From Caenorhabditis remanei (taxonomy: Eukaryota; Nematoda; Chromadorea; Rhabditida; Rhabditidae), in NCBI RefSeq assembly GCF_010183535.1, contig NC_071333.1, positions 18,350,587-18,414,586 of the forward strand: a DNA stretch of 64,000 bases, given 5' to 3'. Below, piece by piece: positions 28,143 through 51,481 of this stretch; the first letter of the stretch is position 1, and each line of letters begins with the position of its first letter. Under the pieces are notes generated by a model. That model was not told the DNA's origin. It did not search any database and saw only the letters and a program-made list of their open reading frames with translations. The translations under genes were made by a program, and so were the position numbers.

Positions 28143-28885
28143 TGTTGACAGTCTCCTGGTCCCCGAATCAGGGTCCTGTCCCACTCCAAACTAAAATGTA
28201 ATAATTGTTCTCTAAATTATTCTAATTTAGTTTACATTTATTTCATATTTTACTTTCTGTTATTTTCTCCCTTTTTCCCTGTTTCTTTAACTCCATTGGA
28301 AGCGGAAGTAATTCCCTTTCAATTCAAATCACCGCCATACTCGTTGTCTGCGTCTCCACTATCAAAGGCGCACGCTATTAACAACATCACTGGTCTCGCC
28401 GCGCCGACACACAGGAAACGAGTGCAACCGTAGCTGACCGACAACAACGACTTGGCCTAATCATAATTTATTCAGTCTAACTTTTTAGCTAATCTTTAGA
28501 TTCTTTTGTTGAGATTTTCCCCCGTTTTATTGTAGATTTGTTGGAGAAGTTGTAGTCGAGCACTCGGCGAATCCCTCGGTTCTTCTCCTTTTAGGAGAAT
28601 CACCGCGGGTATTCTTCTAGTCCTCTACGAACCTTTTCCCCTTTAACCCTATTTTCTGTAAAGGAGATAACCGGTATAGGTTTTTAATGCAGTCCCTCGT
28701 TGGACATGCTTTTTATCCTAATAAACCTGTTATCTATAAACACGCGTTATTCCTTACAAATGGGCGCCTTCTAATACCTCTGAACCACCTAAAAAGAAGG
28801 TATAATTGCGAGAACATGTACATCTCACTCGGCTCTTACCGGCGGCCTTCTGTCCCCCTCTCGAGAGATAGAAGAGATGGCCACA
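28143..28885 (+). repeat. 5' LTR
   Basis: Starts TGTTGACAGTCTCC and ends GATGGCCACA. It contains AATAAA at 28,720-28,725, two CCCTCG hexamers and a TTTTCCCC-rich centre. No differences from the 3' LTR were found on reading. Confidence 0.95.
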
Positions 28886-28904
28886 TTTGGTGCATCTGAC
28901 CAGG
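28886..28904 (+). other. Candidate primer-binding site
   Basis: TTTGGTGCATCTGACC follows the LTR directly. TGGTGCATC would pair with a tRNA ending GATGCACCA, which fits tRNA-Gly(GCC) for nine bases; beyond that the match to the Gly tRNA I remember fails, so the true primer is unsettled. Confidence 0.6.
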
Positions 28905-29678
28905 TTTACTGGCTTCCGGAGGAAATTTCGATGAAAATCGATTTTTCCGTCGGCCCAGCGAATCAGTCGGTTTCGCTCACAATTTGCCCAAAAATCGATT
29001 TTTTCGATTGAATTTGTTCGATTATCACGTGTTTCTCCTTGAGAATTTAGTGTTTTAGGCGAAATTTTATTTCGCAAGTCTCAAATTCGGGTATTTCTCA
29101 ACGAATTATCGCGGAAATTATGCTTTATTTTTTAAATTTCGCGCGCCTTTGGCGTCGTCCTTTAAAATTTATAGCAAGCGCGCTCTAGTGAGACGCGGGG
29201 TTTAGGCCTCGTTTTCATTAATTTGCGAATTTCCTCGCGATTTCTCGTCACTTTTTTTGGGTTTTCCGTCGGTTTTTCGCGATTTTTTCGCGATAAAGCG
29301 ACCGAATACCCCGAAAATAGTGCCAGAGTCTTTGAAAACCCCGATTTATCGGCGTTTTCGCGAGGAATTCGGCAGAAATTCCCGAGAAATCGGCGCTGGC
29401 CTAAATTATTTCCTTTTCTTCGGAAAAGTTGAGATTTTTTGGCCCAGAGCTGCATTGCTCGCACAGTTTCTGCCACCTCGGCTCGCATTCTCCACTTCTC
29501 GTCGTCATTTTGGCTCCCTCGTGCACATTTCGTCGATTTTCGCTGGAATTTGGACTCGATTCGCCCGGAGACCCCTCGGATCGACCGTTTGCGCGATGTT
29601 GTCGGGCGTCGCAGCTCGTTAGCTGTCTTCAGGTACCCGTTTCCACCGGTTTTCGCTAGATTTAGCCTTCGCTCGGCA

Positions 29679-29706
29679 TTTCGAAATATTGCGAAATATT
29701 TCGAAA
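29679..29706 (+). other. GCGA-loop hairpin 1
   Basis: Arm TTTCGAAATATT, loop GCGA, arm AATATTTCGAAA: twelve perfect pairs capped by a GNRA-type loop. It is followed by ATCCCGAGAG, as is hairpin 3. Confidence 0.8.
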
Positions 29707-29820
29707 ATCCCGAGAGAAGCGAATCAAAGCGAAAACTAATCGGAAACACTCGGTGTCCTGTTGTATGGCTATCACGTGTCGCGTTCGCTTCGGGAGCAGT
29801 CCGTTCTGGTCTAATTTCCC

Positions 29821-29842
29821 TCGATTTTCGCGAGAAAATCGA
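29821..29842 (+). other. GCGA-loop hairpin 2
   Basis: Arm TCGATTTTC, loop GCGA, arm GAAAATCGA: nine perfect pairs with the same tetraloop as the hairpins on either side. Confidence 0.75.
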
Positions 29843-29956
29843 TCGGAAAGTCCGAGGAAGGCTCCGAATGGGATTCTATTGCTATTTTTGCTGTGGTTTT
29901 CAAGGATTGGATGCAATTTCCCTCGATTCTCCGCCGGATTCCGACGTCGCTCGCGA

Positions 29957-29984
29957 TTTCGAAATGTTGCGAAACATTTCGAAA
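29957..29984 (+). other. GCGA-loop hairpin 3
   Basis: Arm TTTCGAAATGTT, loop GCGA, arm AACATTTCGAAA. Relative to hairpin 1 one A-T pair is replaced by G-C, a two-sided change that keeps pairing. It is followed by ATCCCGAGAG. Confidence 0.8.
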
Positions 29985-32900
29985 ATCCCGAGAGGCATGG
30001 AAATCGACTGGGATTGATGAAATCGCCTCGTGGACGGTCAAATACGATGTCGAGAAGAAGGAATACAGTCGAATTTCCTCGTTTTGACTCAAAATCCCCT
30101 CGTTTTTCGCTGAAAAAAATATTTTTTCGGCTTAATACGGGGTTATTGCGGTTGGTTTTGTTTTCGATGGCTCCCTAGTGAGCGGGGTGTGCTAGTTGCT
30201 CCGGTTCTTGCTGTGTTTTAACACGGAATTATCCGTTTGCGGAACAAAAGAGCTTCTGAGGCACGCCAATCACTCGGAGACTTCCGAATTCAAATGCCCA
30301 ATCTATCGGATATCTGTTGTTTGGATATTCGACGCCTCTTTGCGGATTCGATGTGTCGATTGGAGGAAATTTCGCAAGTTTATCGATTTTTCAATTCTTT
30401 TTGGATTCGCTCGGAATTTCGGGAAACCGAAAATCCTTGAGAGCTGCCGAAGAGACTGGAAGTCGATACAAGCTTGAGAAGGATCCTCATTTATTGACGC
30501 GAAGGATTCAAGACATTTTCTCAAGATTCGAGCTCTAGAGAACTCCGATAGTCACTTCGGTGATTAAAGGACGAGATTTCGAACCCTCGAGTTAAGAGAG
30601 AATGTAAATAAAAACTGGGGGTCCCTGGGTTTGTGTGTTGTGCGGATTGCGGTTATTCTTCTGCCGAATTGCTGAAACTGGCCTAGATCTTCGGATTTCG
30701 GACAGTTTTCAGTAGTTCTTGCCCTGTCGGGGGATCAGCAGCTATTGCTGCAGACGATCTCCCTCGTGGGACGGACGTCTCTCCGAATCGGCACAATGTG
30801 CGGATCCTCGGGTCGGCTGATGTTTTGATTGCGTGGTTCTGGAACAGCAGAAGTATTCTGATGTTTCGAGAGCTACGAGGTCGAGGCAGAGCAGGCGAGC
30901 CCCCTCGTGTGAAGCTAAGGCTGTTCTAGATCTTAGTTTTGAGACTTTAGGAGCTCGTTGAGAGCTGGCGTAAGCGGTGCCAGGCAAGAGACGGGGCGTA
31001 CCTCCAGAGTGGATGATCCTGCTCCTCGCCTCAAGTGCTCCACCACACTGCGTCGGCTGAGTTCGTGTAGCGTGTAGATGCGTCATTGTTCCCCCTAGCG
31101 AATACCTTCCACTTCGAGTGGTCATTTAAGTCGGCAAGGGAACTTCGACGTGTATACAAGCGCTATATGGGCTTCATGATCTAATGCGAGGGCATGTACA
31201 GTGCCCAAGTGTCGTCATCCCCTTGCTGTGATTGTGATTAGCGAGTAACGAAGAGTTTCATTAGACGGCAGACTAACTTCTTTCGCCTTATTGTTTCTAG
31301 GGAGTTTTGGGAGAATTCTGCGAAAGCGGAAGTCTTCTGGGACAAACTAGTAACGATTCGGCAGTCGTTTGAAAGAAGGGAAGCTGACGTGCTTTGCTAA
31401 GGACCAGCCGAAGGCTCAGGACTTCATAAGTCGTAGTAGATAGCGTAGCAGTACGTTCGGTTGAGTCTGTGATTGCTTACGTTCGAGATTGAGGAGGAAT
31501 TGGCGATAGTTCCGCTTCGAACTCGAATATAAAAGTGATCCTAGAAGAACCCGATGGTGATAACGCGAGCCTCGGTCGTCTGATCTCCCTCGATTTATTT
31601 CGAGTCTTTCGGATTCCCGTCACCTCGCCGACTTGCCTCGCTTGTTCTTTTAGTGATTCTTCTGAGTGGACCCTTCGCTTTCAGAATCCCTCGAAAGGAT
31701 TTGGTGGAATCAGTCGGTTGATTGCGTTCCCTTCAATCCGTAACGAGTATCCTGGTAAGGGTTCGGCTGATGCCTAAATTCGAAAACGCGTGATTTAGGT
31801 CACGTGGTTAGTAGAGTGGAAGCGATCGAGCAGTCGAAACCTTCTGTTACTCGAACGGAGAGATCGGAAACGAAATTGGGCGAAGGATTGCTCCAAATCT
31901 CCGGAGAAGGGAATCGCTACTATCGCAGAATACTGAGTAATTTCGCACTTGTCTTCTGCGATTAGATAGATCTCGTGGAGTCAATCTGCCACTCTTATCT
32001 GCTGTTCGACAGTCGCTCGCGGCTGATCAGGGGATACGAGCCGTGAGATTTCCTCCGCGGGGTACGTTTGGTGTCAGCTTCATCGGTTTACGATGACGAG
32101 CATGTTTCAGCTCGGAGCGAAGAGCTCGCCATACATTCGTATGGTTGAGATTTGAGCTTCGGGAAGATACTTGAGCGTATAAGTAAAAGTTGGAGAGCTG
32201 TATACTGAATGGGTGCCAGTTCGTTCTAGTCGGATCGAGCCATTCGAATTTCGTATCGACAGGGTGCCCTCATAGAGGGAGCTCCTCGATACATGCGTTT
32301 AGATTTTCGAATACCTCTATCCGATGACCTCGAAAACTGACCTATTTACCAGAAGACTTAGTTGAGAAGCTGAAGAATATTCGTATATCCTTTATATGAT
32401 CATTTGGATGCATCTTGGCGACCGACATATTCAGTAGCGTGAAAACGTGTGCTGAAACAGTCACCCCGGTTAATTCATGGTTTCTGGAACACTCCGGAGC
32501 GAGCAAACCGCAAGGTTTCCTCTCTTCGCGAGGATTCCGGGAGACCCAGGAATAGTCGGCTGTGTTGGTTTGTGAAGTTATCTTTCATGTACCAGTTTGA
32601 TGTAATATCTGAGGAGGATACTCCCTATGGAGCATCCTCTGGCCCCCCGGAGCGTAAGTAATTACGATCTGGTAAGGGTTTCTAGTGTCGAGTCTGATTC
32701 GTTCGGAGTTGTGTCATTGGGATCGAGTTATTTCGCGATCGGAAGAGATCCCTCGAATTTCTTGAGAGAGCCGCTTCGGATCGAGAAAGGACTCGAACCC
32801 TCTGGCCCCCCGGAGCATGAGTTCTTGAATTCATTGCTCCAGGAGGCAGTTGGTACAAACCGCCGACAGATTTGGTGCTATCAGATTATACAATCGGACT

Positions 32901-34310
32901 AGTAGATGAAGTACGGGTAACGGATTTCGGTTCGAAACCCTAGATAATTGATCAAATATAACATGGAACTCTGAGTATCTGTGAAGGATGTCAGCATTCG
33001 AGTTGTTCGTAGAGTGATACAGGTTTACGATCCTTTTCGAAGGGAAAGTATACAGGTTTCTCTCGAAGGACAGCGGGATTCTTGAAGCACGGTTTCTGTA
33101 TTGAAACTGAGCTTACCCTCGAGTATCTGGTGTATTCTGACCGGACTACGAGCTAGTTTTCTCGTCACGTCGCGTGGCTTTTGAACTCTTTATAGAGTCA
33201 ATAGTGATTGAGAATTCTCCCTCGAAATCTGAAGATTACTTGTAATCGTTGTCAAGAGTATTATCGATCCTGAATCCTACTCGAAAACGCTTGCATCTGG
33301 AATAGAGAAAGAGCATAAACTAGCGGTGTATCTGTTCGAGGTTTAGACAGATATGAGCGATTTGTCGGAGTTATGCTAAGAGGACAGTCGGCTGATCGAA
33401 GCTAAGATCTACTACGATTTCGTAGGAGTTCCCACTTCGGTCTAAATTCTGTGTGATTTATTCTACTCCACCCTCGGGTCGATCTAGATGAATCATTCGG
33501 AATACCGGCTGAAAACACCTATCATTCGCATCCACCGAGCGATCGGTCGAGCAGTCTGAGAAAGTGCGCTCCTCATGTGTAGATGAGTGTCGTCGATTCG
33601 TCAATGACTCGTAATCTACCATTACAGGTATTCACTTCCGTCATATATCTCGTATCTCTCAGTAACCATAAGTAGTCGTTTATGAGCTATGATTTTTCTC
33701 TGTCAGTCGAGTCTTCGTTTCGTTGTAGTATCTCGGTGAGGGGAATCTAGGTGTGTCTTGGAGTTTCGCCAGCGGATCGTTAGATTAACGGGCCGGCCGC
33801 CTGGCAAGCGGAGGGCCTTATTAGGCTAGCGATACCTCGCTACTCCAGGAGGCACAAGAAGTTCCACTCCGCGAGCTCTACTATAACTGATGAGTCTGAC
33901 AGTCGTTTAAGAGAAGATCTAGTTTCAGCTTATGGAAACACTAGACTAAGAACAGATCACATCGCGGAATCCGTTATGATTCCGAAGCCTCTTGGTTACG
34001 CTCTCATAGCAGCGATCTCGCTCGCTGTGAAGTTTGCGTTTAGCTTAGCTTTGAGATGGTTTAGCGTCGGGTTGCGCCGAAGTTATTCGTGAAGAGCTCT
34101 GAGTTGTGGCGTCTGAGAAGGTGACTCCTTCGACTGAGGCCGCTCTTTATCTCTCGACATCCCGAACCTTCGCGTATTGCATTTTCGCAAGGATTTCTTT
34201 GAGAATTCTAACTAATTTTACTCGTTTTGCCTCCGTGAAAGTTTTCTGACTTCGTCTATTCCGAGTCTAATTGATTCATTTTTGTGTTTCAATGAACCTC
34301 GCGATCGACC

Positions 34311-36087
34311 ATGTCAGATAATGGATCGAATCCGCCACCGGGCGCTGACGAACCCTCGGAGCCATCACAGTGTGCGATTTACCAGAATTCAAAAAAGAAA
34401 GTCTTCAGTCCCTCGGACTATAAACTGGCTATGATCTATACGGTTATGAAATACATCGTTGTCGTTGTAATGGGACCTTATAGCTATGTTTCAAATGATT
34501 CGTCGCTGTTTTAGGTCGCATTTCACCCAAGGATGAATTACGAAATCGTGTACAGCATAGTTCGTTACCTCAATGTCATCTCTGAGAAAAACCTTTTCGA
34601 CGTGAACCCTCTGAGAAGCCCAGCAATGGTGCAATTGATTGCTTTACTAACATATTCGTAAGTTTTTAATGCATTAGCTCGGTGGTCTAACTAGAAATTG
34701 TGTTTTTCACTCGAGGAAGTGTGATACGAGTTTGAATTTGCTTCTTTTTGAGAGTTCGAAAAAGACGCGCCTTTTTCGAACGCTTTACGAGCCAGCAGGC
34801 AGCTGACGCACTTCGCGTGTTACTTGCGCACTTCCGGTTTTAACATGAGCAAGCTCATTTATCGGTCGTGTCTCAGGTTCCTCGACTCAAATTTGTGCAA
34901 TTTCGCCCTCGTTCTAATATTCGTTGAGTTTTATTAACCAAAGCTTCCGATTGGACCGGTAGAATTGGTCAAATAATGATAAGATGATGGTAACACCCGT
35001 GATTTCTTTCCGTTACTATGAAAAAATTATTTTTCAGAAATAACGGCCGATGCTATTTAGCGTTTCGTCACCGCCGGAACGGATTCCCTCGGAAATTCGT
35101 TAAAAGAAGTCACAAATCGTTGATAAATTGTCAATTTTTGGAGTAGACGTTCCCTCGAATCGCTCCCTATGTGTTCATTGGTCCCGATTATGTTCTTCGG
35201 CATATTCCGTATCTCTGTTCTGTTCGCTTTACATAGGACAGCTTTTCGCGGTAATATTTATTTCAGAAATTTGCCAATTCGAAACTATCACCTCGAGAAA
35301 ATGGATAAGGTTGCTAACAATCAGGTCAGGAGTCGTCCCTCGAATTGCAGAAATATGGATTCTCGAGAGAGTAATTTTTTATTTTCTTCAGGGCGAGCGA
35401 TAATCTCTTTACTTTTCCAGACCCTCGTTTGTCTGTCCGACAGGACTCTGGTTGCATGAATACGACGACCGTCTGTATCCCTCGCTTTCGAGCCGAAGAG
35501 ATTCCGACCTCAAGTAGAATTGTAGACAGATACCTCGAAGAAAGACCGGTTAGCTAGAATAAGCTGATAATTTATTTAATGATGCCTCTAGTTTTCAGAT
35601 TCAACATTCCCCGCCGAGGATTGAGGTGGTATGTCGAGCATATGAATTCGTATCACACAATCGAGTGTGGTAAACGTGGATATTGATTGAAGTATTGAAG
35701 TCTCGAGAGCGTTCCAATCATGCCTACGAGTTGAATGGAGGATATTCCCTTCAGAAGACTCCGTATGACCTCGGGATTCGTACTCCTTGGAGTATGACCC
35801 CGATGGAGGAATGGGCGGCTTACCACGTGGCAATCTTTGATTTCCTCGAGGTTAGATGCCCACGCCCTCGTTACTCTACTTCAAGATTATCCTCGTTGAG
35901 ATTGATTCGTGAAAACGACTTGATCTGCGGATCCATACCCTCGATATATTCACAGCCGGACTCGCATGGTTATGGAGATATCTGTCATATCCGTCAAGTC
36001 GCTCAAAAAGCGATGCTGAAGTTTCATCATAAGCTACAGTCGAGATTCCTCGATTCTATCTTATCGCTCAAATGGAATCCTTCGTAA
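34311..36087 (+). CDS. Retroelement accessory gene A, multi-exon, unknown function
   Basis: Not recognised. Exon 1 34311-34442 (44 codons, starting MSDNGSNPPPGADEPSEPS) joins in phase to 34515-34657 (VAFHPRMNYEIVYSIVRYLN...). That exon ends in phase 2 at a GTAAGT donor. A TTTTTCAG acceptor at 35,037 opens a compatible third exon (SNNGRCYLAFRHRRNGF...). Internal exons between 35.1 and 35.7 kb are uncertain, with several TTTCAG acceptors at 35.28-35.60 kb. A terminal open frame at 35683-36087 contains TPWSMTPMEEWAAYHVAIFDFL and ends LSLKWNPS. AATAAA follows at 36,126-36,131. No zinc knuckle, enzyme motif or membrane segment was seen. Frame continuity across the first two introns supports a real gene; the overall product is tentative. 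Confidence 0.5.
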
Positions 36088-36125
36088 AGTTGAAATATTG
36101 GGGTTTCATTCATATTCTTTTTGTT

Positions 36126-36131
36126 AATAAA
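36126..36131 (+). terminator. Internal poly(A) signal after accessory gene A
   Basis: AATAAA 39 bp beyond the accessory A stop and about 120 bp before the acceptor in front of accessory gene B. This spacing is typical between genes of a nematode operon. Confidence 0.6.
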
Positions 36132-36254
36132 AATCGAGTTTGTTCGCTTAATGATTGCTTTTGATTCGGTAACCCGGTTTTTACCCGGTTCAATATCTGT
36201 TTCGTTTACGATTCGGTGAATTAATCTTTATAGCTTTATATCGATTTAGCAATT

Positions 36255-38267
36255 ATGAGCAACGAAAACTCACGTATTAACACGGAGAAGATGCTAGAAG
36301 ACTCAATCCTCGACGAGAATCCGGAAGTCGGTAATATCCAGTTGCCTCCGATCCCCATAGAGCTCGAAAGAATTCATTTGGGAGGAGCGCAAGGTAATTA
36401 CACACTTTCATTGAGCGTATGGTGACTCGGTTCTTTTCAGATCCCTCGGTTGACTCATCGGTTCCAAGAACCAATGGTGCAGACGCGGAAGACGGAAATA
36501 TCCTCGAGTTGGATGATCTGGAGTTTGGTTAGTGCTGTCAACTCTAAGAATGGTGATCAGTAGCTTTAAATTTAGGAGATCCGTCGGATCAAGGCAGCAA
36601 TGCAGGAGATTCTGTTCACTCCTCGATTCTTGGAGAGTCAGACTCGCAAGAGCATGAAGTTCCAGCGAACCAGGAGATCCGCGAAGGTCCGTTGGAGTTT
36701 TTCGTCTTCCCAAACGGGAGACCCAATACTCCGAGTGTTGATTCGATTCCTTTTGCAGATGATAACTTGGATGGAAATCCAATGTTGGAGGCTGCGAACG
36801 TAGTCGAGGAAACCGCGAATCTGGCGGAAATTGAAGCCCTCGACATTGTTCAACAATTGAAGCAACTACCAGCCATTCTTCAGGAGTTGAAGAACATCTC
36901 GTCTCAGCTCAAAGCCAACAACACCTCGTCCGGATCCATTGATGATGCCAGCAACTTCATCACGAAGAAAGATTTAGAGAGCTTCGCCACGAAACAAGAC
37001 CTCGAATCCCTCGTCTCGAAAGCTGATTTTGTTGAGCGTCTCCCCTCGGCTGACAAGTGGACTGAGATGGTCGACAGACTCGCGCCACTTGCTTCGCTCG
37101 ACGGTCTGTCAGTCATGATGGGCTCAATCTTGCAGCAACTGCGTGTACTCGCGTTGACTCAGCGACGTCTGACTCGTTGCCAGGGCAAGAGTATTCTCCT
37201 CGGAAAAAAGCTTCTGGCCGACGGAAAAGTTGATCGTGTCAAGTTCTTGAAGACCTCGCACAAGATTACTAATGTCTACAACTCGCTTCGCAGCTACATT
37301 GCGCGAAAAGTCACGTCTTTGGAGAAAGAGTCTGAGATGAGACATCTTGCGAACCAACTTGATGCTATCAAGAAAGAGCAGGCCTCATATTCTCGAGTCT
37401 TAGAACCCAGCGACCATGACGATGAAGCACAGCTAGCTGCCCTCGACGAGATTGCGGCAATTGAGACGACTGTTGACCTCGCTCAACATTCTCAAGTACG
37501 TCAGGACGAAGAGAGAAAGAAGCTTCAGCATCTTGAAACTCGCAGTGCTGTACGTTTTAGTAGTTTTGTAAATCTGTTCTTTAATTCAGTTCTTTGTTCA
37601 GAGCTCTACGCGATGCTTCTTCTGCCAGGAGAATCACGACTCGTTCAGGTGCCAGAAGTACCCAGACTTGCCCTCGAAACTTCAACTCTTCCGTGAAAAG
37701 AACCGTTGCATGATTTGTGGACAAGCTGGCTGCAATGGCTCGGTATCTTCCTGCAAGGCGAAGAACAGAGTGTGCAAGAATTGCGATCCCTCGTTGCCAC
37801 TCGAACAACGTGAACACCATCAGACGCTTTGCCCTCGACGCCGCCAGAAGAAACGCTCTTCGGGCGGAGGAAAGGCCATAGAAGAGAAGGTAGCTCCCTC
37901 GGAAGCCCTAGAGGTTGAAGAGAAGTTCGGGTACAACGTCGATCGCTTCCTCGATCCATCTGCTCAACAGCGTCCAGGCAGATACGTTGTCCTGGCGAAA
38001 CACGTGACTCAAACCTCGGATTCTGACGAGGAACCGACTCCGTCCAAACGCCAGAAGATCAGCACAGATTCCAATGGAATCGGTGAGGACTCCTCGGCCA
38101 AGGAAGTTGGGAAGGTTCCAATTCAGAAGAAGAAGAAGAAGAACGCTGGAGGAAAGAAGCCAAAGAAGGCCAAGAAGCCAATCAAGGAAATCGAGACCGA
38201 GTCCGTTGACTCTGTCAAGGACCAGGAAGCTGCCAATATTGAGAATCCCTCGGGATCGACTAATTAA
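36255..38267 (+). CDS. Retroelement accessory gene B, coiled-coil zinc-knuckle protein
   Basis: Four exons: 36255-36393, 36441-36527, 36576-37549, 37602-38267; 1,866 nt, 621 residues, all phases consistent. The start is the first ATG, five bases after a TCGATTTAG acceptor that could accept a spliced leader. The N-terminal third is acidic, with exons 2 and 3 both beginning with a G-D-P-S join. The middle is Gln/Leu-rich and probably coiled coil (IVQQLKQLPAILQELKNI). The exon 3-4 junction opens a cysteine cluster: CFFC, then CMICGQAGC, CKNC and a final His-Cys (HHQTLC). The C-terminus is strongly Lys-rich (KKKKKNAGGKKPKKAKK). The cysteine block resembles nucleocapsid zinc fingers of the downstream gag, so a nucleic-acid-binding, gag-derived role is my inference. 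AATAAA at 38,310. Confidence 0.75.
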
Positions 38268-42519: not shown

Positions 42520-42551
42520 TTCGACTTCAACCCTTTTGTGAACAACCAACC

Positions 42552-45083
42552 ATGTCTGGTACCGGACAACAACCCTCGCGGAACGGACTGCCGACGACCT
42601 CTGGAGATGGCCAAGCGAACAATCAACGTTCGCCCTCGGAAAACTTCAAGACGGCTCAACGCAACGTCAAGACCGCAATCACTCGTGCAAGCACCGCCGG
42701 CCTCAAAACCGCGGAGCAAGCATTCCATTTCATGGACGACCCCTCGGCCGTTTATGATGCTCTCGGGCTCAAGACTATCGACAACTTGCGAAAAAAGTTG
42801 ATGGTCATAGCGGGAATGATCGAAACGGACAAGCATTTCTACGAATTCGTCAAGAATATCGACGAACTCTTGTCCAACAAGGAACGTCAACGCCTACGCG
42901 AAGTGGCTAAGGCTCATCTCGACCTGAAACCACGGACTGACAACCTGCCGGTCATCAAGGACGCCATCACGGCCCTGCAAACAGCCCTCGAGAAGCAGGA
43001 TTACCTCGCTGGAGAGATATCCCCAACGGAAACCGCGGATATTTCGAAGGATGTGGAAAATTCACCCGTGGACGGAGAAGAACCATTCGAAGAAGACCAT
43101 TCGGATGCGGAATCTGTCCACCATAACGAAGACGACTTCAAGGATCGCGATCTTATTCAAAATCCACCGACTGTCGGATTCAACAACTCTGGTGGAACGC
43201 AAGTTCCTCCTGTGGTTACCTCGCACACTCGTTCAAGTGTCGAAAACCACGAAGCCTCTAGACGTTCTTCGATCAGAGCGGACACGAACGCGGCGTCCCA
43301 TGGACATCCGATAGCGTGCCCGGTCTGTGAGGAAGGACATGAGCTCTTCAAATGTAAGAGCTCGGATCTGCCGCGCTATCTAGCACGGAACGGATTGTGC
43401 GTGCATTGCACGTCAAATCTGCATGAGACACACATGTGTCCTCTTCAGAATGCTGGATCATCACCATATTTCGCTGGAGGTTTCGTTGAGAAACGTCCGG
43501 AAAGCGGTGGACGTTTCATGACCCAGAAAACGCAGATAGTAGCATCAACCCCTCGTGAAAAAATTCAGTCGAACTTCTCGTCCCTGTCTGACAGCGACGA
43601 GAAGGAACACATTGTCTCTGCTCGTTCTCCTGCCCCTCGAGCTCGTGAGGAAGAATCTTCTGATGAAGAATCTGACGTCGAGTGTCGTGCGGCAGAGAGC
43701 ACCAGGAAAGGGAAGACGAATGGTAAATGGTTGTCTTATCACGACCTAGACGCCATTCTTCCGAAATTTACTGGCGAAGCGCTCAGGTACAAGAAGTTCA
43801 TGACGATGTTTGAATCACTTGGATTGCATAACCCTCGACTTGACGATGTGATGCGATTGTCTCTCCTGGAAAAGAAGCTTATCGGCGACGCTAAGGGCTA
43901 CTTTTGCGAGCTTACTAAACCTCGTGACTCGCTTGAAGCTACTTTAGCGAATATGCGAGAAACTTTCGAAAAAGATACTTCGGAAGTTACAGAAGCCCTT
44001 CAGCAATTCAGTCGGCTTAGTTTCCATGCGACAGACTACAAACGTGCATCTCGGCAGCTTATGGAGAGCAAAACGCTCATTCGGAGGCTTCGAGATCTTG
44101 GGGAGGATGTAAACACCCCCTCGTTTGTTCGCAGCTTCATGGAAAAGTTACCGGGGAAGATGCTCCGTAACATCAGAAATTTGTTTGAAGACGGCTCGCA
44201 GCCATCGGTTTATGACATCATCAATAGATACGATCAATCCTTGAGAGATCGGGCCTTTGCTGATCGATTCCAATCTGCGAACGTCGCTGATAGGTTGAAA
44301 GAGATACCGGATGAGTCAGTAATGGCTACATCCCAGATCTCGAGTAATCCTACGAAGTCGAATGGAAATTTCGCTCCTGGTGCGGGTACTGGTAGTACCA
44401 AAACACCGGCCTCTCCGCTTCCAAATGCGTCGAAAGTTAGCAATAACTCATCGACAAATTCGAAGAAGAGAAACAAAGGAGGGAAGGGTCCGCAGACTTC
44501 AAACCAGTCGAACAACTCTGTGAATCAGAGTAAAGTAGACAACCAAGGCTCTTCTGGTGGGAATAACCTGGGCTACTTCGGTACCCAGCAGACGTTCCAC
44601 CAGGGAAATCAGGCTCCTCGGAGTCAAGGAAACGCAGCCACGGTCAACTCGGCTTCAGTGCAGCCAAAGCCTCGGATTCCTGGCATGAAAGGGCAGCCCG
44701 GAGAAAAACTCGAACCGTGCTACAAGCACGGGAGAGGTTACGATGCAAGATTCATTCATCATACCTTCCCTCGAGACTCTGAAGCTGCCTCGAAATGTTG
44801 TTTCATCTGTGGCCCCGGACACTCAATTCTTCAATGTGCTCTTCCCTCGTACGACGTTCGTCAGTTCTTCCGTTCTAGCGGTTCCTGTCACAATTGTGCT
44901 CAGCGAAACCACAGAACCGAAGATTGCCAGAGCTTCAGTACTTGTGCTTACTGTCAAGGCAAGCACAATACCGGCGGATGCACTTTGAAAGAGTACTACC
45001 GGGACCCCCGAAACTATCCAACCGACGCCCCAGCTCCAGTGTTGTCAGAATTTTTTCGTGGCCCCTTCGGGGGCTCGCAATAA
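42552..45083 (+). CDS. gag: Gag polyprotein of BEL/Pao element
   Basis: 843 residues; forms the virus-like particle and binds the element's RNA. ATG lies 33 nt after a consensus splice acceptor, so gag is probably expressed from a spliced or trans-spliced message. Features: a helical N-terminus (ERQRLREVAKAHLDL); a Cys/His cluster at ~256-300 (CPVCEEGHELFKC, CVHC, HETHMC); an acidic stretch; a DUF1759-like capsid region from ~402 (LPKFTGEALRYKKFM to FMEKLPGKMLRNI); an Asn/Ser/Gly-rich linker; and a second zinc cluster from ~749 (CCFICGPGHSILQC, CHNCAQRNHRTEDC, CAYCQGKHNTGGC). It ends in SEFFRGPFGGSQ, overlapping pol by 26 nt in a different frame. CCCTCG falls in all three codon phases across it. 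Confidence 0.93.
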   Translation: MSGTGQQPSRNGLPTTSGDGQANNQRSPSENFKTAQRNVKTAITRASTAGLKTAEQAFHFMDDPSAVYDALGLKTIDNLRKKLMVIAGMIETDKHFYEFVKNIDELLSNKERQRLREVAKAHLDLKPRTDNLPVIKDAITALQTALEKQDYLAGEISPTETADISKDVENSPVDGEEPFEEDHSDAESVHHNEDDFKDRDLIQNPPTVGFNNSGGTQVPPVVTSHTRSSVENHEASRRSSIRADTNAASHGHPIACPVCEEGHELFKCKSSDLPRYLARNGLCVHCTSNLHETHMCPLQNAGSSPYFAGGFVEKRPESGGRFMTQKTQIVASTPREKIQSNFSSLSDSDEKEHIVSARSPAPRAREEESSDEESDVECRAAESTRKGKTNGKWLSYHDLDAILPKFTGEALRYKKFMTMFESLGLHNPRLDDVMRLSLLEKKLIGDAKGYFCELTKPRDSLEATLANMRETFEKDTSEVTEALQQFSRLSFHATDYKRASRQLMESKTLIRRLRDLGEDVNTPSFVRSFMEKLPGKMLRNIRNLFEDGSQPSVYDIINRYDQSLRDRAFADRFQSANVADRLKEIPDESVMATSQISSNPTKSNGNFAPGAGTGSTKTPASPLPNASKVSNNSSTNSKKRNKGGKGPQTSNQSNNSVNQSKVDNQGSSGGNNLGYFGTQQTFHQGNQAPRSQGNAATVNSASVQPKPRIPGMKGQPGEKLEPCYKHGRGYDARFIHHTFPRDSEAASKCCFICGPGHSILQCALPSYDVRQFFRSSGSCHNCAQRNHRTEDCQSFSTCAYCQGKHNTGGCTLKEYYRDPRNYPTDAPAPVLSEFFRGPFGGSQ
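45051..45074 (+). promoter_or_regulatory. Candidate +1 frameshift signal with UUCG hairpin
   Basis: In the gag frame the codons are GAA TTT TTT CGT. A +1 slip of the Phe-tRNA from TTT (45,054) to TTC (45,055) enters the pol frame at GTG 45,058. Three bases later GCCCC-TTCG-GGGGC (45,061-45,074) forms a 5-bp GC stem closed by a C(UUCG)G loop, an exceptionally stable tetraloop. Pol is +1 relative to gag and has no ATG at its start. Confidence 0.6.
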
Positions 45084-48009
45084 TTCTCTAGAGTTTGGCT
45101 CTAGGCCGTCCTTGGTCCGCAGTCCAGCTGTTGCCTCGCCAGCAACAGTGTCTCTAGAACGACCTTCGGGTCACGATTCTGGTGGAGATTCGTCTCTCAG
45201 TAGGGGTTTGCCGCTATTTCTCGAACGTCTCACACAGGAATGCCTTTATAACGCATCCCTCGTGGGAGATATAGCCGAGATCTCAAAGTTGCCTTTCGTA
45301 GCATTACGTACTACGGCCGGTCACAAGGTTTTAGCATTGGTTGATTCCGGAGCAACGCTGTCTGTTCTCTCTCACGAGAGCGCAGAGCGCTTTGGCCTGG
45401 ACATCCTAGCGACTAGAACTCTAACAATTGCGGGATATAGCAAAACCACTACTGAAAAGTCGAATATCTACCAGATGTCATTCCATACAGATGGTGAGCC
45501 TTTTTCAATGCTCATCGCTGGTGCCCCTCGTCTTCCGAAGACTAAATTCGTCTGCCCTCGTCTGAGTTCAGCCGACGTTAGTCATCTTCGAGCCCATCAC
45601 GTCGATACTCATGCCTTGTCATTGGATCAAGCCTTTAACGGCCGATTCATTGATATGATTTTGGGTAACGACCTGTTACCTCGATTATTAGGGAGATCGA
45701 AGAGGCTGTTGCTTCCTTCCGAAAGATTCGTGGAGTTAACACCGTTTGCTCCTATCATCTTTCCCCCTCCTCGTTCCTCACTTCCCCCGGACGAGATCAG
45801 CAGCGACCAAGTTGAAGCGTTTCATTGTGAAAGCTTCATCGGGTCTTTGATGACTCAGACGGATTCGAAGGATCCCATTGAGCGTCTCCACTCGGAGATT
45901 TCGCAGTTATGGAATCTTGAGAATTTGGGTATCGAGGAACCTGGGCCGATTGAGGGGAAAAAGACGGAAACAAAGGATCTCATTGCCGAGTTCAAAAAGA
46001 ACATCCGGTACACTGAAGACGGTATCATTATGGTATCCCTTCCGTGGAACGGGAAGCAGAAACGCCTCGCGTCAAACCGCGGAGTTGCTGCTAAACGGCT
46101 AGAGCAGCTTATTCTCTCTCTGAAAAGAAAGAAGAATTTGATGCAAGATTATGATGAGATCCTAAAAAAGCAACTAGCCAGCGGTATTATTGAAATAGTC
46201 ACACCAGAGATGGATAACAATACAGATCCTGTGTATTACATTCCCCATCGCGTCGTAGTGAAGGAATCTTCGCTTACGACAAAGTTGCGGATTGTACTCG
46301 ATGCGAGCAGTAAGAAAGGGGGCGAGCTCAGTCTTAACGACTGCCTCGACCCTGGACCGTCCATGCTTGTTGATCTCTTTGACATTCTCATTCGCTCTCG
46401 TTTACCGGATTACCTGGTGGTGGCTGATATTGAAAAAGCCTTCCACCAGGTACGTCTGGTGCCCGAGGATCGGAACTGTACTCGTTTTATCTGGATAAAA
46501 GATATAACGAAACCGCCTGTGCGTGATAACATTATTGAGTACCGATTCTCTCGGATTCCATTTGGAATGACGTGTTCTCCGTTTCTCCTCGCTGCCACTA
46601 TCGATCATTACTTAAATGGAATGACCGACGGCATCGCTGAGCGGATTCGGCAGAACTTATACGTCGACAATGTAATGATTACCTCGAACAATAAGGCGGA
46701 AATACAGGATCTTCGGATTGCCTCAAGAAATGCATTCACCTCGATGAATATGCGTCTTCGAGAGTACATCACGAATTGCCAAGAAGAGATGTCTAAATTC
46801 CCTCGGGATGAGATCACAAGTGAAACGACGATCAAGTTACTCGGTTATCTCTGGGATTCTGTAAAAGATACATATACGGTGAAACTAGCAACGTTGCTGG
46901 AGTCACACCCGACGAAACGTCAGGTGGCCTCACGCATGGCCGAAACTTTCGATCCCCTCGGCGTCCTAGCTCCATTGCTAGTCTCGTTCAAGTTATTGAT
47001 GCGAGACTTATGGGATGACGGTATCGACTGGAAGACGAAAATCCCTCGTTCCCTTCTTAACCGATGGAAAGCCATTAGGCATCAATTCTCCGAGTCATCG
47101 ATTTCGATTCCTCGCATGTTGAGACCTAGTGGTAAGTTCAAGAAGAGCCATCTTCTTGTCTTCTCGGACGCTTCCAAAGATACCTATGCCTGTGCAGTCT
47201 ACATACTCTATGAGTATGAAGGCCGGGACCCCGTGGTAGGTCTTCTGACCGCAAAATCGAAAATTAAGCCATCGGCTTGTAATACTCTTACCATTCCTCG
47301 TCTCGAATTACTCGCGATTGAGATTGGTGCGAGGATTGCAATGACTGTAGTTAACGCTATGGTTTCGGAGCACCCACGCTCCGTCAGGTTCTTTTCTGAT
47401 TCGATGGTAGCCTTGTATTGGATTCTTCGTAACGAGCAAAAGAAATGTTGGGTCAGTAATCGTGTTAAGGCTATTAATGATAAGAGCGACTCATTGAAAT
47501 CCCTCGAGATTCCGTCAGTCTTTCATCATTGCCCTACTGACCAAAACCCGGCTGATATTGCTACGAGAGGAATGGGAAGCGAAGACTTAAAGAATTGCTC
47601 TTTATGGTTTCGTGGCCCGGACTTCTTAACGAATCATCCAGATACATGGTCCTGTCGCCTCGAAGGCATTATTTCTTGCCCTTCGGACTTCCGTGAACTT
47701 ATTTCCTCGGAAATCATTACGGCAGGAAAGAAATCTGACAAAAATTCTACTGAGAAATCGGTAAAACCTACTGAGCAATCGGTAGACTGTTCTGCTGAGA
47801 AATCGGTAGACACTGTCGAGAAATCGACAGACCAGGCAGAGTTCAAAGCTCTGACTGAAGCCCTTCGGGGTATGTGTCTTACAACTCAGTGTAAGGAACA
47901 GTACGTTTCTTTCGTTCCATTCGAGCGAAGTCACTCCCTTTCCAGAGTCGTGTCGTTTACACACTCGACTTTGAATTGCTTATTAAAGCTGTTCAAACGT
48001 CACGTGTGA
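45058..48009 (+). CDS. pol: Pol part 1: protease, reverse transcriptase, RNase H
   Basis: 983 codons from the frameshift region to a TGA. Aspartic protease of the retropepsin/A17 type with DSG at ~96-98 (ALVDSGATLSVLS). Reverse transcriptase from ~400: YIPHRVVVKES, RIVLDAS, VVADIEKAFHQVRL with a catalytic Asp, FSRIPFGMTCSPF and the box LYVDNVM near 535, where the second Asp of the usual YxDD is Asn. RNase H from ~700: FSDASKD, PRLELLA, FFSDSMVALYW and NPADIATRG, which keep the D-E-D-D set. The tail after RNase H contains repeated E-K-S-V/T-D segments at 47,750-47,840. The open frame starts without ATG, so it must be made as a gag fusion. It stops 12 nt before the integrase ATG, in the same frame. 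Confidence 0.93.
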   Translation: MAPSGARNNSLEFGSRPSLVRSPAVASPATVSLERPSGHDSGGDSSLSRGLPLFLERLTQECLYNASLVGDIAEISKLPFVALRTTAGHKVLALVDSGATLSVLSHESAERFGLDILATRTLTIAGYSKTTTEKSNIYQMSFHTDGEPFSMLIAGAPRLPKTKFVCPRLSSADVSHLRAHHVDTHALSLDQAFNGRFIDMILGNDLLPRLLGRSKRLLLPSERFVELTPFAPIIFPPPRSSLPPDEISSDQVEAFHCESFIGSLMTQTDSKDPIERLHSEISQLWNLENLGIEEPGPIEGKKTETKDLIAEFKKNIRYTEDGIIMVSLPWNGKQKRLASNRGVAAKRLEQLILSLKRKKNLMQDYDEILKKQLASGIIEIVTPEMDNNTDPVYYIPHRVVVKESSLTTKLRIVLDASSKKGGELSLNDCLDPGPSMLVDLFDILIRSRLPDYLVVADIEKAFHQVRLVPEDRNCTRFIWIKDITKPPVRDNIIEYRFSRIPFGMTCSPFLLAATIDHYLNGMTDGIAERIRQNLYVDNVMITSNNKAEIQDLRIASRNAFTSMNMRLREYITNCQEEMSKFPRDEITSETTIKLLGYLWDSVKDTYTVKLATLLESHPTKRQVASRMAETFDPLGVLAPLLVSFKLLMRDLWDDGIDWKTKIPRSLLNRWKAIRHQFSESSISIPRMLRPSGKFKKSHLLVFSDASKDTYACAVYILYEYEGRDPVVGLLTAKSKIKPSACNTLTIPRLELLAIEIGARIAMTVVNAMVSEHPRSVRFFSDSMVALYWILRNEQKKCWVSNRVKAINDKSDSLKSLEIPSVFHHCPTDQNPADIATRGMGSEDLKNCSLWFRGPDFLTNHPDTWSCRLEGIISCPSDFRELISSEIITAGKKSDKNSTEKSVKPTEQSVDCSAEKSVDTVEKSTDQAEFKALTEALRGMCLTTQCKEQYVSFVPFERSHSLSRVVSFTHSTLNCLLKLFKRHV
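48007..48009 (+). other. In-frame TGA between RNase H and integrase
   Basis: The only stop between 45,058 and 50,788 in the pol frame. Coding resumes in the same frame and the next ATG is at 48,022. Linker-type homology to the BEL pre-integrase region seems to run straight across it. Confidence 0.8.
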
Positions 48010-48021
48010 AAGAGTCCGATC

Positions 48022-50790
48022 ATGACGGAATTCATTGAATCCAAAAAATCCCTCGGTACCCCCAATTTGGGCGTACAGAGTAGAGCGATAGCTCGAAGAC
48101 TTGTATTCATTGAACATTATAAGGAAGCGGCTAGCTCTGGGCAGGAATTTTCGTCCAAATTGAGTCCGGTCCTCGGTGTCGATGGCCTCTGGCGAGCCCA
48201 TCGAAGAGTTCCCTCGCCAGTTCTTGCTAGTGACACTAACAAGTTAATTCTGGTTCATAAGAAGCATCGTCTAGCACGATTGGTTGTTATGGAGACGCAC
48301 ATTAAAAATGTGCATCTACCGGCGACATATCTGGTAGCAGCGCTTCGAACGAGATACTGGATCCAAGCGGACAAGCAACTTGCAGATTCTGTAATCCGCA
48401 GTTGTATTCCTTGTCAAAGGGTTAACAACAAGCCATTTGAGTATCCGTTTTCACGGACGCTCCCACGGTTTCGTACAACTCCGTCTACCCCGTTTCAGCA
48501 CGTGGGCCTCGATTATGGTGGTCCACTGAATTATCGCCTAGATGATGGTAGCTGTATCGGCAAGGCTTATGTCTTGGTATACACCTGCCTCGTCACAAGG
48601 GCAACTCACCTCGAGTTAATTCCTGACGGGACGACGGAGATGTATCTGCTAGGATTGCGGAACGCATTCTCCAGACGGGGAGTGCCGGCCTCAATCTACT
48701 CAGATAATGCCCGTACTTTCACCCTCGGTGCAAAGATTATTTCGGATGACGTGAGGAATTATGTACCTAGTACATCCTTCACCACGTTTCTTGCCTATCA
48801 TGAGATCAACTTCCGGTACATCACCCCTCTCGCACCGTGGCAGGGTGGCATTTATGAGAGGGTAGTGGGTATCGTGAAGCATCAATTGAGGAAAGAAATC
48901 GGCAAGCAACTGGAATCATTTTTTGTATTGACTCACGTGATAGTACGAGTTGAATCTATGCTAAACAGTCGACCCTTGACGCCCAATCCTCGTTCACTTG
49001 AAGATTTGCCTGCTCTTCGTCCCATGGATTTCTTACTCCCGACCGTTCTGATCGATCTTCCCTCGGAACGTGACGGATTGAATCCCGGCGATCAATTTGA
49101 TCCATCTCGGAATCCCTCGATAACTGAGCGTCGCACCCTCGATCACCTCGCGGGTCTCGACGAAGTTTTGGAGAGATTATGGGATGTTTGGTCAGGAGCG
49201 TATCTGGCTTATCTGAAGGAGAACACCCATCCGGAGAAACGTACATCCACCTTAAAACCTCGTGTTGGACAGTTGGTGTTCATTTATACTGAGAAGTTCG
49301 CACGCCACAATTGGCCTCTAGGAGTAATTGAGACGTTAAAAAGCAGTCCCTCTGGAGAAATCCGTGCAGCGACTGTTAGATGCAAAGGTAAGATCTATGA
49401 GCGGCCAGTGAATCATCTGATTCCCCTCGAAGTCTCCCCCTCGGAAGACGATCCAGCTTTCGAGCCGGTCGAGAAATCTGTTGATCCTCGGGCCCCTCCG
49501 GATCCCCCTTGCATTGCTACGTTCCCGATTCATTCCAAAAGCCACAAGTCGAAGAACGGAGTAATAGGAAAGAAATCGCAGAAAGTTCCAGTTGAAGGAG
49601 TCAGCGAAGTGTTGGATAAAGCAGGTTCAAAGATTCCGGATGTAGGGCTTGGCCGTTCTGGCACTCCTACAGAAGGAATTGGACTAAAGTCTAATGGGAC
49701 CGAGCCTCTCATCGATCCATTGCTTCCACTAGTTTCTGAATCTCAGCCACTAGGGGTTAGTATGGGGTCAGGAGCGGTTCCCCCATCTGTTAAAGGTCCG
49801 GACTTGGATGTTAGTCGTTCAGGCACCTCCAAAATTGGCAGCTCGGCTGCAGTTCCGTCTTCAGATGTTTGTCGTTCAGGCACATCTGGGGAGGGAGATG
49901 CACGAGAGTCGCTGGAATTGGATACTGGTCGGTCTGGCGCATCCAAAGGAAGGATTGGACTAAAGTCATCTGGTTCCGAGTACTTCCCCGATAGTGGTAT
50001 CCCTCGAAAAGCTAATTCTTTAGCCTTTGATGGTACACCTCGATCCGGTAGTGCTCAGCCAGTCGAATCTGCCACGGACTTGGATGCTAGTCGTTCAGGC
50101 GCACCCAGGAATAGGATTGGACTAAAGTCATCTGGACCCGAGTATTTCTCGGCTACTCCAGTTGATACAGTTTCGGACGTGGATGTTGGTCGTTCAGGCA
50201 CATCCTCTGGAAGGAGAGTATCTCCAGGACCGGTTTCTGATGCTTGTCGTTCAGACACATCAGAAGAAGGTTATACGAGAGAAATCCCGACATTGGTTGC
50301 TAGTCGATCAGGCGCATCCAAAGTTAGGAGAGCTCCTCCAGCACCGGATTCAGATGCTAGTCGTTCAGGCGCATCTGGAGAAGGCGCCACACGGAGAGTT
50401 CCTAGCTTGGATGTTAACCGCAACACATCTGTTAACGATTCTGAAAAGTTCTATTCTAATCCTAGAGCCACTCGACAACGCAAATTCGAGAATATGGATG
50501 ACAGGGCGAAGTCATCAGGTTCCGCGATCTCTCATGGTGATATTGGACCCCAAGACACTGTTAATCAGAGTCCAGGTGTCAGTTATCCTATGATGTCTTC
50601 TCGTCCTGACGGCGTCGATCAAGCGAAAGCTCGTTTACCCAGTCACCGTGTCCGGCCTTACAACCCTCGCAAAGCGAAAGCCAAGCTTGCATGTTATGTG
50701 AACATAACGCAAGCAGCCGGGCCTCAGACCCCCCGGAGTGTTGACAGTCTCCTGGTCCCCGAATCAGGGTCCTGTCCCACTCCAAACTAA
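48022..50790 (+). CDS. Pol part 2: integrase with long repetitive C-terminal extension
   Basis: 922 residues in the same frame as pol part 1. H2C2 zinc-binding domain at ~92-133 (HIKNVH, then CIPC). Integrase core with Asp in VGLDYGGPL, Asp in IYSDNARTF and Glu in GGIYERVVGIVK, the complete DDE triad. A DUF5641-like domain follows at ~414-470 (RVGQLVFIYTEKFARHNWPLG). About 300 extra residues then contain some ten copies of an R-S-G-T/A-S motif, some followed by IGLKSSG. The frame runs through the LTR boundary at 50,739 and ends inside the 3' LTR (stop 50,788-50,790), so the last 17 residues are LTR-encoded. Expression requires stop readthrough or reinitiation at the ATG. Confidence 0.93.
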   Translation: MTEFIESKKSLGTPNLGVQSRAIARRLVFIEHYKEAASSGQEFSSKLSPVLGVDGLWRAHRRVPSPVLASDTNKLILVHKKHRLARLVVMETHIKNVHLPATYLVAALRTRYWIQADKQLADSVIRSCIPCQRVNNKPFEYPFSRTLPRFRTTPSTPFQHVGLDYGGPLNYRLDDGSCIGKAYVLVYTCLVTRATHLELIPDGTTEMYLLGLRNAFSRRGVPASIYSDNARTFTLGAKIISDDVRNYVPSTSFTTFLAYHEINFRYITPLAPWQGGIYERVVGIVKHQLRKEIGKQLESFFVLTHVIVRVESMLNSRPLTPNPRSLEDLPALRPMDFLLPTVLIDLPSERDGLNPGDQFDPSRNPSITERRTLDHLAGLDEVLERLWDVWSGAYLAYLKENTHPEKRTSTLKPRVGQLVFIYTEKFARHNWPLGVIETLKSSPSGEIRAATVRCKGKIYERPVNHLIPLEVSPSEDDPAFEPVEKSVDPRAPPDPPCIATFPIHSKSHKSKNGVIGKKSQKVPVEGVSEVLDKAGSKIPDVGLGRSGTPTEGIGLKSNGTEPLIDPLLPLVSESQPLGVSMGSGAVPPSVKGPDLDVSRSGTSKIGSSAAVPSSDVCRSGTSGEGDARESLELDTGRSGASKGRIGLKSSGSEYFPDSGIPRKANSLAFDGTPRSGSAQPVESATDLDASRSGAPRNRIGLKSSGPEYFSATPVDTVSDVDVGRSGTSSGRRVSPGPVSDACRSDTSEEGYTREIPTLVASRSGASKVRRAPPAPDSDASRSGASGEGATRRVPSLDVNRNTSVNDSEKFYSNPRATRQRKFENMDDRAKSSGSAISHGDIGPQDTVNQSPGVSYPMMSSRPDGVDQAKARLPSHRVRPYNPRKAKAKLACYVNITQAAGPQTPRSVDSLLVPESGSCPTPN
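49645..50420 (+). repeat. Degenerate coding repeat in integrase tail
   Basis: Irregular units of GTCGTTCAGGCRCATCC (R-S-G-T/A-S) recur about ten times at 60-110 bp spacing, with GGATTGGACTAAAGTC also repeated three to four times. It looks like expansion by unequal exchange or template switching. Confidence 0.85.
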
Positions 50791-51481
50791 AATGTAATAA
50801 TTGTTCTCTAAATTATTCTAATTTAGTTTACATTTATTTCATATTTTACTTTCTGTTATTTTCTCCCTTTTTCCCTGTTTCTTTAACTCCATTGGAAGCG
50901 GAAGTAATTCCCTTTCAATTCAAATCACCGCCATACTCGTTGTCTGCGTCTCCACTATCAAAGGCGCACGCTATTAACAACATCACTGGTCTCGCCGCGC
51001 CGACACACAGGAAACGAGTGCAACCGTAGCTGACCGACAACAACGACTTGGCCTAATCATAATTTATTCAGTCTAACTTTTTAGCTAATCTTTAGATTCT
51101 TTTGTTGAGATTTTCCCCCGTTTTATTGTAGATTTGTTGGAGAAGTTGTAGTCGAGCACTCGGCGAATCCCTCGGTTCTTCTCCTTTTAGGAGAATCACC
51201 GCGGGTATTCTTCTAGTCCTCTACGAACCTTTTCCCCTTTAACCCTATTTTCTGTAAAGGAGATAACCGGTATAGGTTTTTAATGCAGTCCCTCGTTGGA
51301 CATGCTTTTTATCCTAATAAACCTGTTATCTATAAACACGCGTTATTCCTTACAAATGGGCGCCTTCTAATACCTCTGAACCACCTAAAAAGAAGGTATA
51401 ATTGCGAGAACATGTACATCTCACTCGGCTCTTACCGGCGGCCTTCTGTCCCCCTCTCGAGAGATAGAAGAGATGGCCACA
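50739..51481 (+). repeat. 3' LTR
   Basis: 743 bp, the same ends and length as the 5' LTR (offset 22,596). The preceding bases ACCCCCCGGAG are not a conventional purine tract because pol coding continues into the LTR. Confidence 0.95.

Follow-up and report, generated by a model that had tools for sequence, protein, structure and literature searches.

Export of the genomic RNA (gRNA) of Cer1, a long terminal repeat (LTR) element of Caenorhabditis elegans, requires the CERV protein (PMC10309623). CERV, translated from a spliced mRNA, has a Cys-rich loop; it colocalises with gRNA and lies around fibrils that are thought to be gRNA, and the same account, in the portions considered here, calls binding of CERV to gRNA untested (PMC10309623). 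Similarly, the HIV Rev protein multimerises on the unspliced RNA of the element that encodes it and exports that RNA (PMC10309623). In the packaging-signal assembly of single-stranded RNA viruses and hepatitis B virus (HBV), many dispersed copies of a motif on the genomic RNA contact a virus-encoded protein (PMC6281560, PMC7612645, PMC5431903). Here, we describe a BEL/Pao LTR retroelement of Caenorhabditis remanei that is saturated on its sense strand with the hexamer CCCTCG and has relatives in the same genome that carry other words in its place. The element lies at positions 28143-51481 of what we call the window, the whole stretch of 64,000 nucleotides that was analysed (NC_071333.1, positions 18,350,587 to 18,414,586, forward strand).

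Bacterial Chi, KOPS (FtsK-orienting polar sequences) and DNA-uptake sequences are oriented, dense words with a reader protein and lineage dialects. The retroelement word is like them in being short, oriented, dense and different between related lineages, but those words act on a double-stranded bacterial chromosome, whereas this one belongs to a eukaryotic retroelement and is proposed to be recognised on a single strand. As with Cer1 and CERV, we deal with a nematode LTR element and an accessory protein with a Cys cluster, here accessory frame B (accB) or a second protein, Acc1, both encoded upstream of gag; unlike the window element, Cer1 is related to Ty3/Gypsy, and no RNA word is named in the portions of PMC10309623 considered here. 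Rev uses one structured region, whereas the word sites are spread over the whole RNA. The HBV motif sits in the loops of stem-loops, whereas the retroelement word is linear, nearly all-or-none and without detectable fixed structure, and, unlike the motifs of packaging-signal systems as far as those are described in the cited portions, it is swapped for another in sister lineages. Nothing on such words in retroelements was found in the part of the open-access literature (PMC) that was consulted. The present analysis widens the subject from a single motif to several words, each specific to a lineage.

CCCTCG occurs 72 times on the plus strand of the element and its complement CGAGGG occurs once, and the remaining 40.7 kb of the window holds three sense copies and one antisense copy. 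When the duplicated LTR was counted once, 70 copies stood against 6.0 expected from a first-order Markov model (z 26), and CCCTCG was the top hexamer of the element in both enrichment and strand asymmetry. A preliminary description, made by hand from the sequence, had put the ratio at about 70 to one and chance at about six per strand, with copies in the LTRs and leader as well as coding parts and in all three codon phases of gag, and the counts bear it out on each point. In third-order simulations (n = 200), the background of which already holds much of CCCTCG itself, the mean was 30.5 copies and the maximum was 45. When CCCTCG was masked, the best remaining hexamer that is not a CCTCG variant was TGGTGC, at z 5.8. 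Thus, other C/T-rich hexamers, which the preliminary description had named as the pattern to compare, are not equally enriched.

The word is independent of reading frame. Copies fell in codon phases 0, 1 and 2 at 5/1/4 in gag, 0/3/4 in pol and 4/4/2 in the integrase frame. Observed counts were 10 in gag, 7 in pol, 10 in the integrase frame, 4 in accessory frame A (accA) and 5 in accB, and synonymous-codon shuffles (2000 for each) gave means of 1.3, 1.7, 1.5, 0.6 and 1.0, respectively, an excess of 4- to 8-fold across the five coding frames. The observed count was reached by none of the shuffles for gag and the integrase frame, 0.05% for pol and accB, and 0.1% for accA. Whether the word forces unusual amino acids was judged against relatives, and no bias was found over 38 aligned residues (P 0.53); three of five aligned motif arginines were matched by no relative aligned there.

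The first base of the word is the flexible one. The core CCTCG was found 135 times against 27.4 expected (19 antisense), preceded by C in 70 cases, A in 26, T in 26 and G in 13, and the sense-to-antisense ratio was 26:3 for ACCTCG, 26:11 for TCCTCG and 13:4 for GCCTCG. The 15 variants at positions 2 to 6 of CCCTCG each had at most 12 copies. The site is therefore better written NCCTCG, with C preferred. Its flanks are near random, with a mild excess of T before (34/70) and of A after (27/70) and with few C after. Spacing is Poisson-like (coefficient of variation 0.95; uniform range 0.79 to 1.24), no periodicity was found in the element, and density along it is uniform (Kolmogorov-Smirnov P 0.83). 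The thinning that the preliminary description saw between about 39.4 and 42.5 kb is accordingly not significant, and the emptiest 3.1-kb interval is expected by chance (P 0.32).

Beyond what had been described before, the word is lineage specific and is replaced by another in the sister clade. A Pol query against the window's own assembly gave 49 matches, of which 40 were read with 1 to 1.5 kb of flank, together with eight upstream and six downstream pieces. The nine not read separately were C144, C166:73800, C170, C152, C172, C4:18096165, C5:5146856, C5:16323803 and C15:5538, of which C15:5538 lies inside locus L013 and C5:16323803 partly inside L028. Totals per clade include near-identical copies and are not counts of independent events. 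Clade A, at 82 to 99% identity, carries CCCTCG at 202:4 sense to antisense over 10 loci, and its members at 82 to 85% keep the word, so that CCCTCG is not absent from close relatives, the other pattern that the preliminary description had singled out. Clade B, the sister of A at about 76%, carries ACCGCG (103:4, 7 loci) and has zero to two CCCTCG per locus. Clades C, D, E and F, at about 42 to 45% identity, carry CCCAC (106:3, 4 loci), AYCCGCGG (palindromic core CCGCGG, 121 in 8 loci), TCCCGCCG (48:0, 4 loci) and ACCGCT (51:0, 3 loci), respectively. The strand asymmetry of D lies in the AY, which precedes 29 of 38 core sites in the pieces from L021 and L045, and the word of E is strict, with 32 exact 8-mers against 2 across all 24 one-mismatch variants. 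Clade W (L014-L017) has a weaker word, ATCCGC, with a total of 19:1 for a pol locus and an upstream piece taken together; the upstream piece holds 13 against a simulated maximum of 8, the pol locus 6 against a simulated maximum of 6, and a 4-kb downstream piece none. No word was found in the outgroup family (L037 and L039-L043). In the stretches examined, one strand carries about 1.5 to 4.5 words per kb. Outside its own clade, every word is close to background, with two exceptions: CCCAC is mildly sense biased in several clades, and the complement of ACCGCG lies partly inside the D motif. We note that D words in L051 run well past the 179 nt that it shares with an upstream piece, as if another element lay next to it or in tandem.

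Such words might also arise from composition, codon usage or repeats in proteins. A hexamer z of 16 to 19 was likewise reached in two of the six blocks of host sequence in the window, and the first of these holds a collagen-type frame, which shows that repeat-coding genes can do so. Thus, enrichment alone proves little, and the argument rests instead on codon phase, spread through non-coding sequence and orientation. The words of A to F, found at pol, lead again in separately fetched upstream pieces, at 24:0 and 25:0 for A, 16:0 for B, 24 for D and 20:0 for E; CCCAC (26:1) came second to TCTAC (28:5) in the C piece, and ACCGCT (15:0) was the second hexamer in the F piece, after the overlapping CCGCTC (20:0). 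TCTAC is a second sense-biased word beside CCCAC in clade C (50:9 in L044 and L018). Synonymous shuffles and codon phases were repeated on ten pol loci (1000 shuffles), and the word exceeded every shuffle in eight. In order-2 simulations of nine A, B, D, E and F loci, the best hexamer was never as high (0/60). Because copies occupy all codon phases and both coding and non-coding parts, exceed synonymous shuffles and Markov controls and are randomly spaced, we consider a compositional origin scarcely credible; for A, B, D, E and F these controls already refute it, whereas C is the least certain case and W was judged by simulation only. A 4-kb piece with an RT_RNaseH domain (PF17917), which we take to be Ty3/Gypsy, gave no clear word, its best hexamer being equalled or beaten in 4 of 60 simulations, and is a single weak control. 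In other Caenorhabditis, the word was sought through peptide patterns, a test of low power that gave no signal, CCCTCG ranking 102 to 3404 in 14 relatives; by the same test, it ranked 8 of 4096 in the window's own frames when pooled and 25 to 121 singly. P0016, a relative from C. brenneri, had an excess of Pro-Arg (12 versus 6.2) without an overall word signal.

How words change between lineages can be followed in pol. On a Pol tree of 35 rows, from which five partial loci were dropped and in which W was entered as wordless, the seven classes (six words and none) can be explained by 6 changes, the fewest possible, although near-identical copies ease such clustering. In the pol codon alignment, CCCTCG sites were kept at 5/7 from L001 to L005 (P 0.08), 6/7 from L001 to L008 (P 0.005) and 7/7 from L005 to L008 (P 0.002), with a background for any 6-mer of 31 to 40%. 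Across the switch from A to B, L010 keeps 0/7 L001 sites and 0/10 L008 sites (background 18 to 20%), losses that do not reach significance by themselves (P 0.21 and 0.14), and L009, also of B, keeps 1/7 L001 sites. ACCGCG in clade B stands at sites other than those of A, partly at synonymous positions, and CCCTCG has disappeared at PLG and SLE although L001 and L010 share the amino acids there.

The words are nearly confined to one strand, which argues against ordinary double-stranded DNA sites, not against minus-strand complementary DNA (cDNA). Sites in double-stranded DNA for a DNA-binding protein of the element or host, which the palindromic core of D might suggest, are very improbable because the words of A, B, C, E and F keep almost entirely to one strand and the core of D carries its AY flank on one side. 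The sense RNA of the element is more structured than the antisense (z -1.70 versus -1.09, P 8e-5, 116 segments of 200 nt), and the host flanks gave -0.31 for sense and -0.40 for antisense (100 segments). The accessory frames are an exception to strong sense folding (z +0.27), and the lowest single segments are at 44301, 32701 and 40601. The extra sense folding is a sign that the full-length RNA of the window copy is under selection, but is no such sign for the word. No stem-loop presentation of the word was found, and little weight is given to words being somewhat commoner in less folded segments (rho 0.27), as the segments overlap. An early indication that the motif is more paired was dropped, as the first test had set single values against the means of skewed distributions and a rank test showed no effect. 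The strongly folded segment upstream of gag (Table 1) contains tandem GGATTTGGTGCA-type repeats, and their TTTGGTGCA resembles the stretch that follows the 5' LTR.

The CCNC core occurs in all seven words against a background of 4.4% of hexamers, or 26% of hexamers with three or more C, and suggests one homologous reader with drifting specificity. Frames of accB lie upstream of gag in A and B (209 to 231 amino acids in most copies, 276 in two), with two Cys/His clusters in both copies examined, and relatives of accB are found upstream of all eight clade A copies read and also with clade B. Acc1, which has zinc clusters, is found with every word-bearing family, and Acc2, whole or partial, with A, B, D, E, F and W and weakly with C. 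By genome position, Acc1 and/or accB lie upstream in A 8/8, D 7/7, E 3/3 (two partial), W 4/4, C 1/3 and F 1/2, and in none of six wordless outgroup copies when searched with queries from word-bearing families; within A, the hits of L001-L004 and L008 are by accB only. In clade B, Acc1 and accB are upstream in L010 and L012, two of the five copies read; the contigs of L009, L011 and L013 reach less than 5 kb upstream, and those of L009 and L013 have their hits downstream. L010 has both Acc1 and Acc2 upstream of gag, and in L005 of clade A the two frames occupy the position equivalent to the spacer of the window, in which neither was detected. Accessory genes turn over quickly: Acc1 and Acc2 are intact upstream of L005, an Acc2 remnant is present at L008, and neither is detected in the window. 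We favour accB as the candidate reader in A and B and Acc1 elsewhere, and Gag outside its C-terminal knuckles may be a further candidate. AlphaFold models were too poor to compare (mean predicted local distance difference test score 43.5 for accB and 45.8 for Acc1).

The preliminary description had proposed an RNA-level function: a site for Gag or accB, a signal for packaging or export, or a pattern that host small RNAs target or that escapes them. The oriented, frame-independent, single-strand word over a transcript stands, and is found in relatives too, and accB stays a good candidate, but the C-terminal zinc knuckles of Gag (residues 727-843) are disfavoured as sole reader, as they hardly change across the A-B word switch. 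The window matches B at 99/117 residues and L005 at 102/117; thus, a reader in the knuckles would need to switch specificity with very few changes. The same comparison bears on a possible action of the word on minus-strand cDNA, as the G-rich CGAGGG, bound by nucleocapsid or integrase during reverse transcription. The strand signal is equally compatible with RNA and with minus-strand DNA, and zinc knuckles often prefer unpaired G. We regard action on cDNA as rather improbable, however, as the knuckles are as similar between the window and B as between the window and L005 and the extra sense folding speaks for selection at the level of the RNA, albeit not of the word.

Alternatively, the reader might come from the host. 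A host RNA-binding protein could read the words and might, for instance, protect a very long transcript from splicing or from premature polyadenylation, and the presence of words in the leader and LTR makes full-length RNA a likely target. Nevertheless, sister clades in one host differ in their word and the host sequence on either side of the element shows no enrichment (3:1 in 40.7 kb), and we consider a host protein unlikely, if the least so of the alternatives. Words could also be pairing sites for host small RNAs (Argonaute seed matches), such that lineages sponge or recruit different small RNAs. Arrays of about 70 seed sites exist, as in CDR1as and miR-7; the words are strict 6- to 8-mers; and the mild preference for T before and A after resembles an 8-mer seed site. 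NCCTCG with an altered first base is also enriched (65 sites), however, which would break a seed, and CCNC in all seven words fits one homologous protein better than seven unrelated small RNAs. Small-RNA pairing is thus unlikely as well.

We give a probability of roughly 0.55 to the reading that a lineage-specific word is read many times by an element-encoded protein and marks the element's own RNA for export and/or packaging. CCCTCG would be the clade A version of a recognition word of the general form NCCNCN, read on single-stranded nucleic acid, most likely the unspliced gRNA. An element-encoded protein would bind many sites at once and coat or mark the RNA, and the marked RNA would be exported from the nucleus and/or packaged; Cer1 offers a precedent for an accessory protein that gathers on gRNA and exports it (PMC10309623). 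What seems to count is the density of sites and not their position, as spacing is random and sites turn over. The word and the specificity of its reader would drift together between lineages, and because every lineage has a different word, we infer that an element may mark its own RNA as self and shut out relatives that exploit its proteins. Perhaps the words form a dialect system, in which each lineage writes a private RNA word and a homologous matching reader, both rewritten from the CCNC core, for self/non-self discrimination; we hold the case for this wider proposal to be evenly balanced.

Several observations, besides the non-significant losses in L010, weigh against the main reading, that of a word recognised by an element-encoded protein as a mark on the element's own RNA. 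Single sites are not strictly conserved: from L008, 6/10 and 7/10 are kept in pol (P about 0.05 each), and upstream of pol L033 keeps 3/10 and L032 7/10 of the window's sites (background about 33%), which implies that density is maintained while sites turn over. Family C is weak, as its word ties or loses against synonymous shuffles (11 versus a maximum of 11 in L018; 9 versus 11 in L020) and the hexamer null was as high in 6/60 and 14/60 simulations of two loci, and the word of W was noticed only after W had been labelled wordless. Sense-biased folding was not significant in eight of nine relatives and reached nominal significance only in L036. Moreover, the structural context of the motif does not differ from that in shuffled flanks (mean rank 0.51), and the motif is only marginally more unpaired than words of the same composition (P 0.04 and 0.21 in two settings). 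An Acc1 hit upstream is missing in two of three C copies and one of two F copies, and accB is found only with A and B. The subfamilies of the window and L008 lack detectable Acc1 and keep the word, so Acc1 is not the reader there unless supplied in trans. Accessory proteins are only 40 to 50% similar even between copies with the same word; because divergence is also fast where the word is unchanged, it singles out no reader. Finally, the queries used to look for Acc1, Acc2 and accB came from word-bearing families and could miss distant relatives in the outgroup.

The architecture of the window copy is given in Table 1. The element is BEL/Pao by its LTRs, ACACT flanks and domains of protease, reverse transcriptase (RT) and integrase type. 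The LTR pair is identical (743/743 bp), with ACACT on the outer side of each end. Pao-type domains are present (Peptidase_A17, E 7e-55; RVT_1, E 7e-12), and the integrase region has DUF5641 (E 2e-13), Integrase_H2C2 exactly at its cut-off (25.5 bits) and rve at E 2e-5, yet under its own cut-off. The pol frame stops after 1006 amino acids in the window and runs to 1934 in L002-L004. The probable primer-binding site may be one for tRNA-Gly. A Pfam scan of accA gave no family above cut-off, and none of three leader frames scanned held a recognised domain. Protein searches with accB and gag queries gave no match, IMG/VR scans found no relatives of the element, and Rfam gave no match at the gathering threshold. 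The integrase tail is repetitive at 49638-50593, with RSG-T/A-S peptides, and P0016 has a similar tail built on the peptide LMSSGR. The leader holds diverged 63-nt direct repeats at 29654-29994 with palindromic ATTTCGAAAT-type units. AATAAA occurs 7 times in sense and 15 in antisense, about half (raw counts). Outside the element, the minus strand encodes a protein kinase with a BRSK UBA domain at 57863-58444, about 6.4 kb away and presumably SAD-1-like, a JmjC domain at 5343-6173 and a collagen repeat at 14667-15422.

Table 1. Features of the window copy, in window positions (aa, amino acids)
Feature	Position	Strand	Size	Remarks
BEL/Pao LTR retroelement	28143..51481	+	23.3 kb	saturated with sense CCCTCG, 72:1
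5' LTR	28143..28885	+	743 bp	CCCTCG at 28573 and 28694; first 418 bp without any
Probable primer-binding site TGGTGCATC	28888..28896	+		begins two bases past 5' LTR
Leader	28886..36556	+		25 CCCTCG, 48 CCTCG; longest sense frame 194 aa
Sole antisense CCCTCG of element	31187..31192	-
Accessory frame A (accA)	36557..37693	+	379 aa	L032 relative at 50%
Accessory frame B (accB)	37572..38264	+	231 aa	two Cys/His clusters, Lys-rich tail; candidate word reader
Spacer, accessory frames to gag	38268..42551	+		7 CCCTCG
Strongly folded RNA segment	40500..40900	+		z -6.6 versus 100 shuffles; in spacer upstream of gag
gag	42552..45083	+	843 aa	10 CCCTCG; N-terminal zinc cluster, C-terminal zinc knuckles
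Protease-RT frame	45058..48009	+		Peptidase_A17, RVT_1; 7 CCCTCG
Integrase frame	48022..50790	+		repetitive C-terminal tail; 10 CCCTCG
3' LTR	50739..51481	+		CCCTCG at 51169 and 51290

These words touch on the question of how an LTR element distinguishes its own RNA from host mRNA and from the RNA of its close relatives. Sequence alone is enough to recognise the proposed cis-signal, seven natural variants of which occur in one genome, and sister clades A and B offer a ready specificity-swap comparison. If the reading is true, the words and their readers would form a set of RNA-protein recognition pairs and might drive the rapid turnover of accessory genes. Ultimately, such words would also constrain the coding sequence, at a cost in synonymous freedom and perhaps in the choice of some amino acids.

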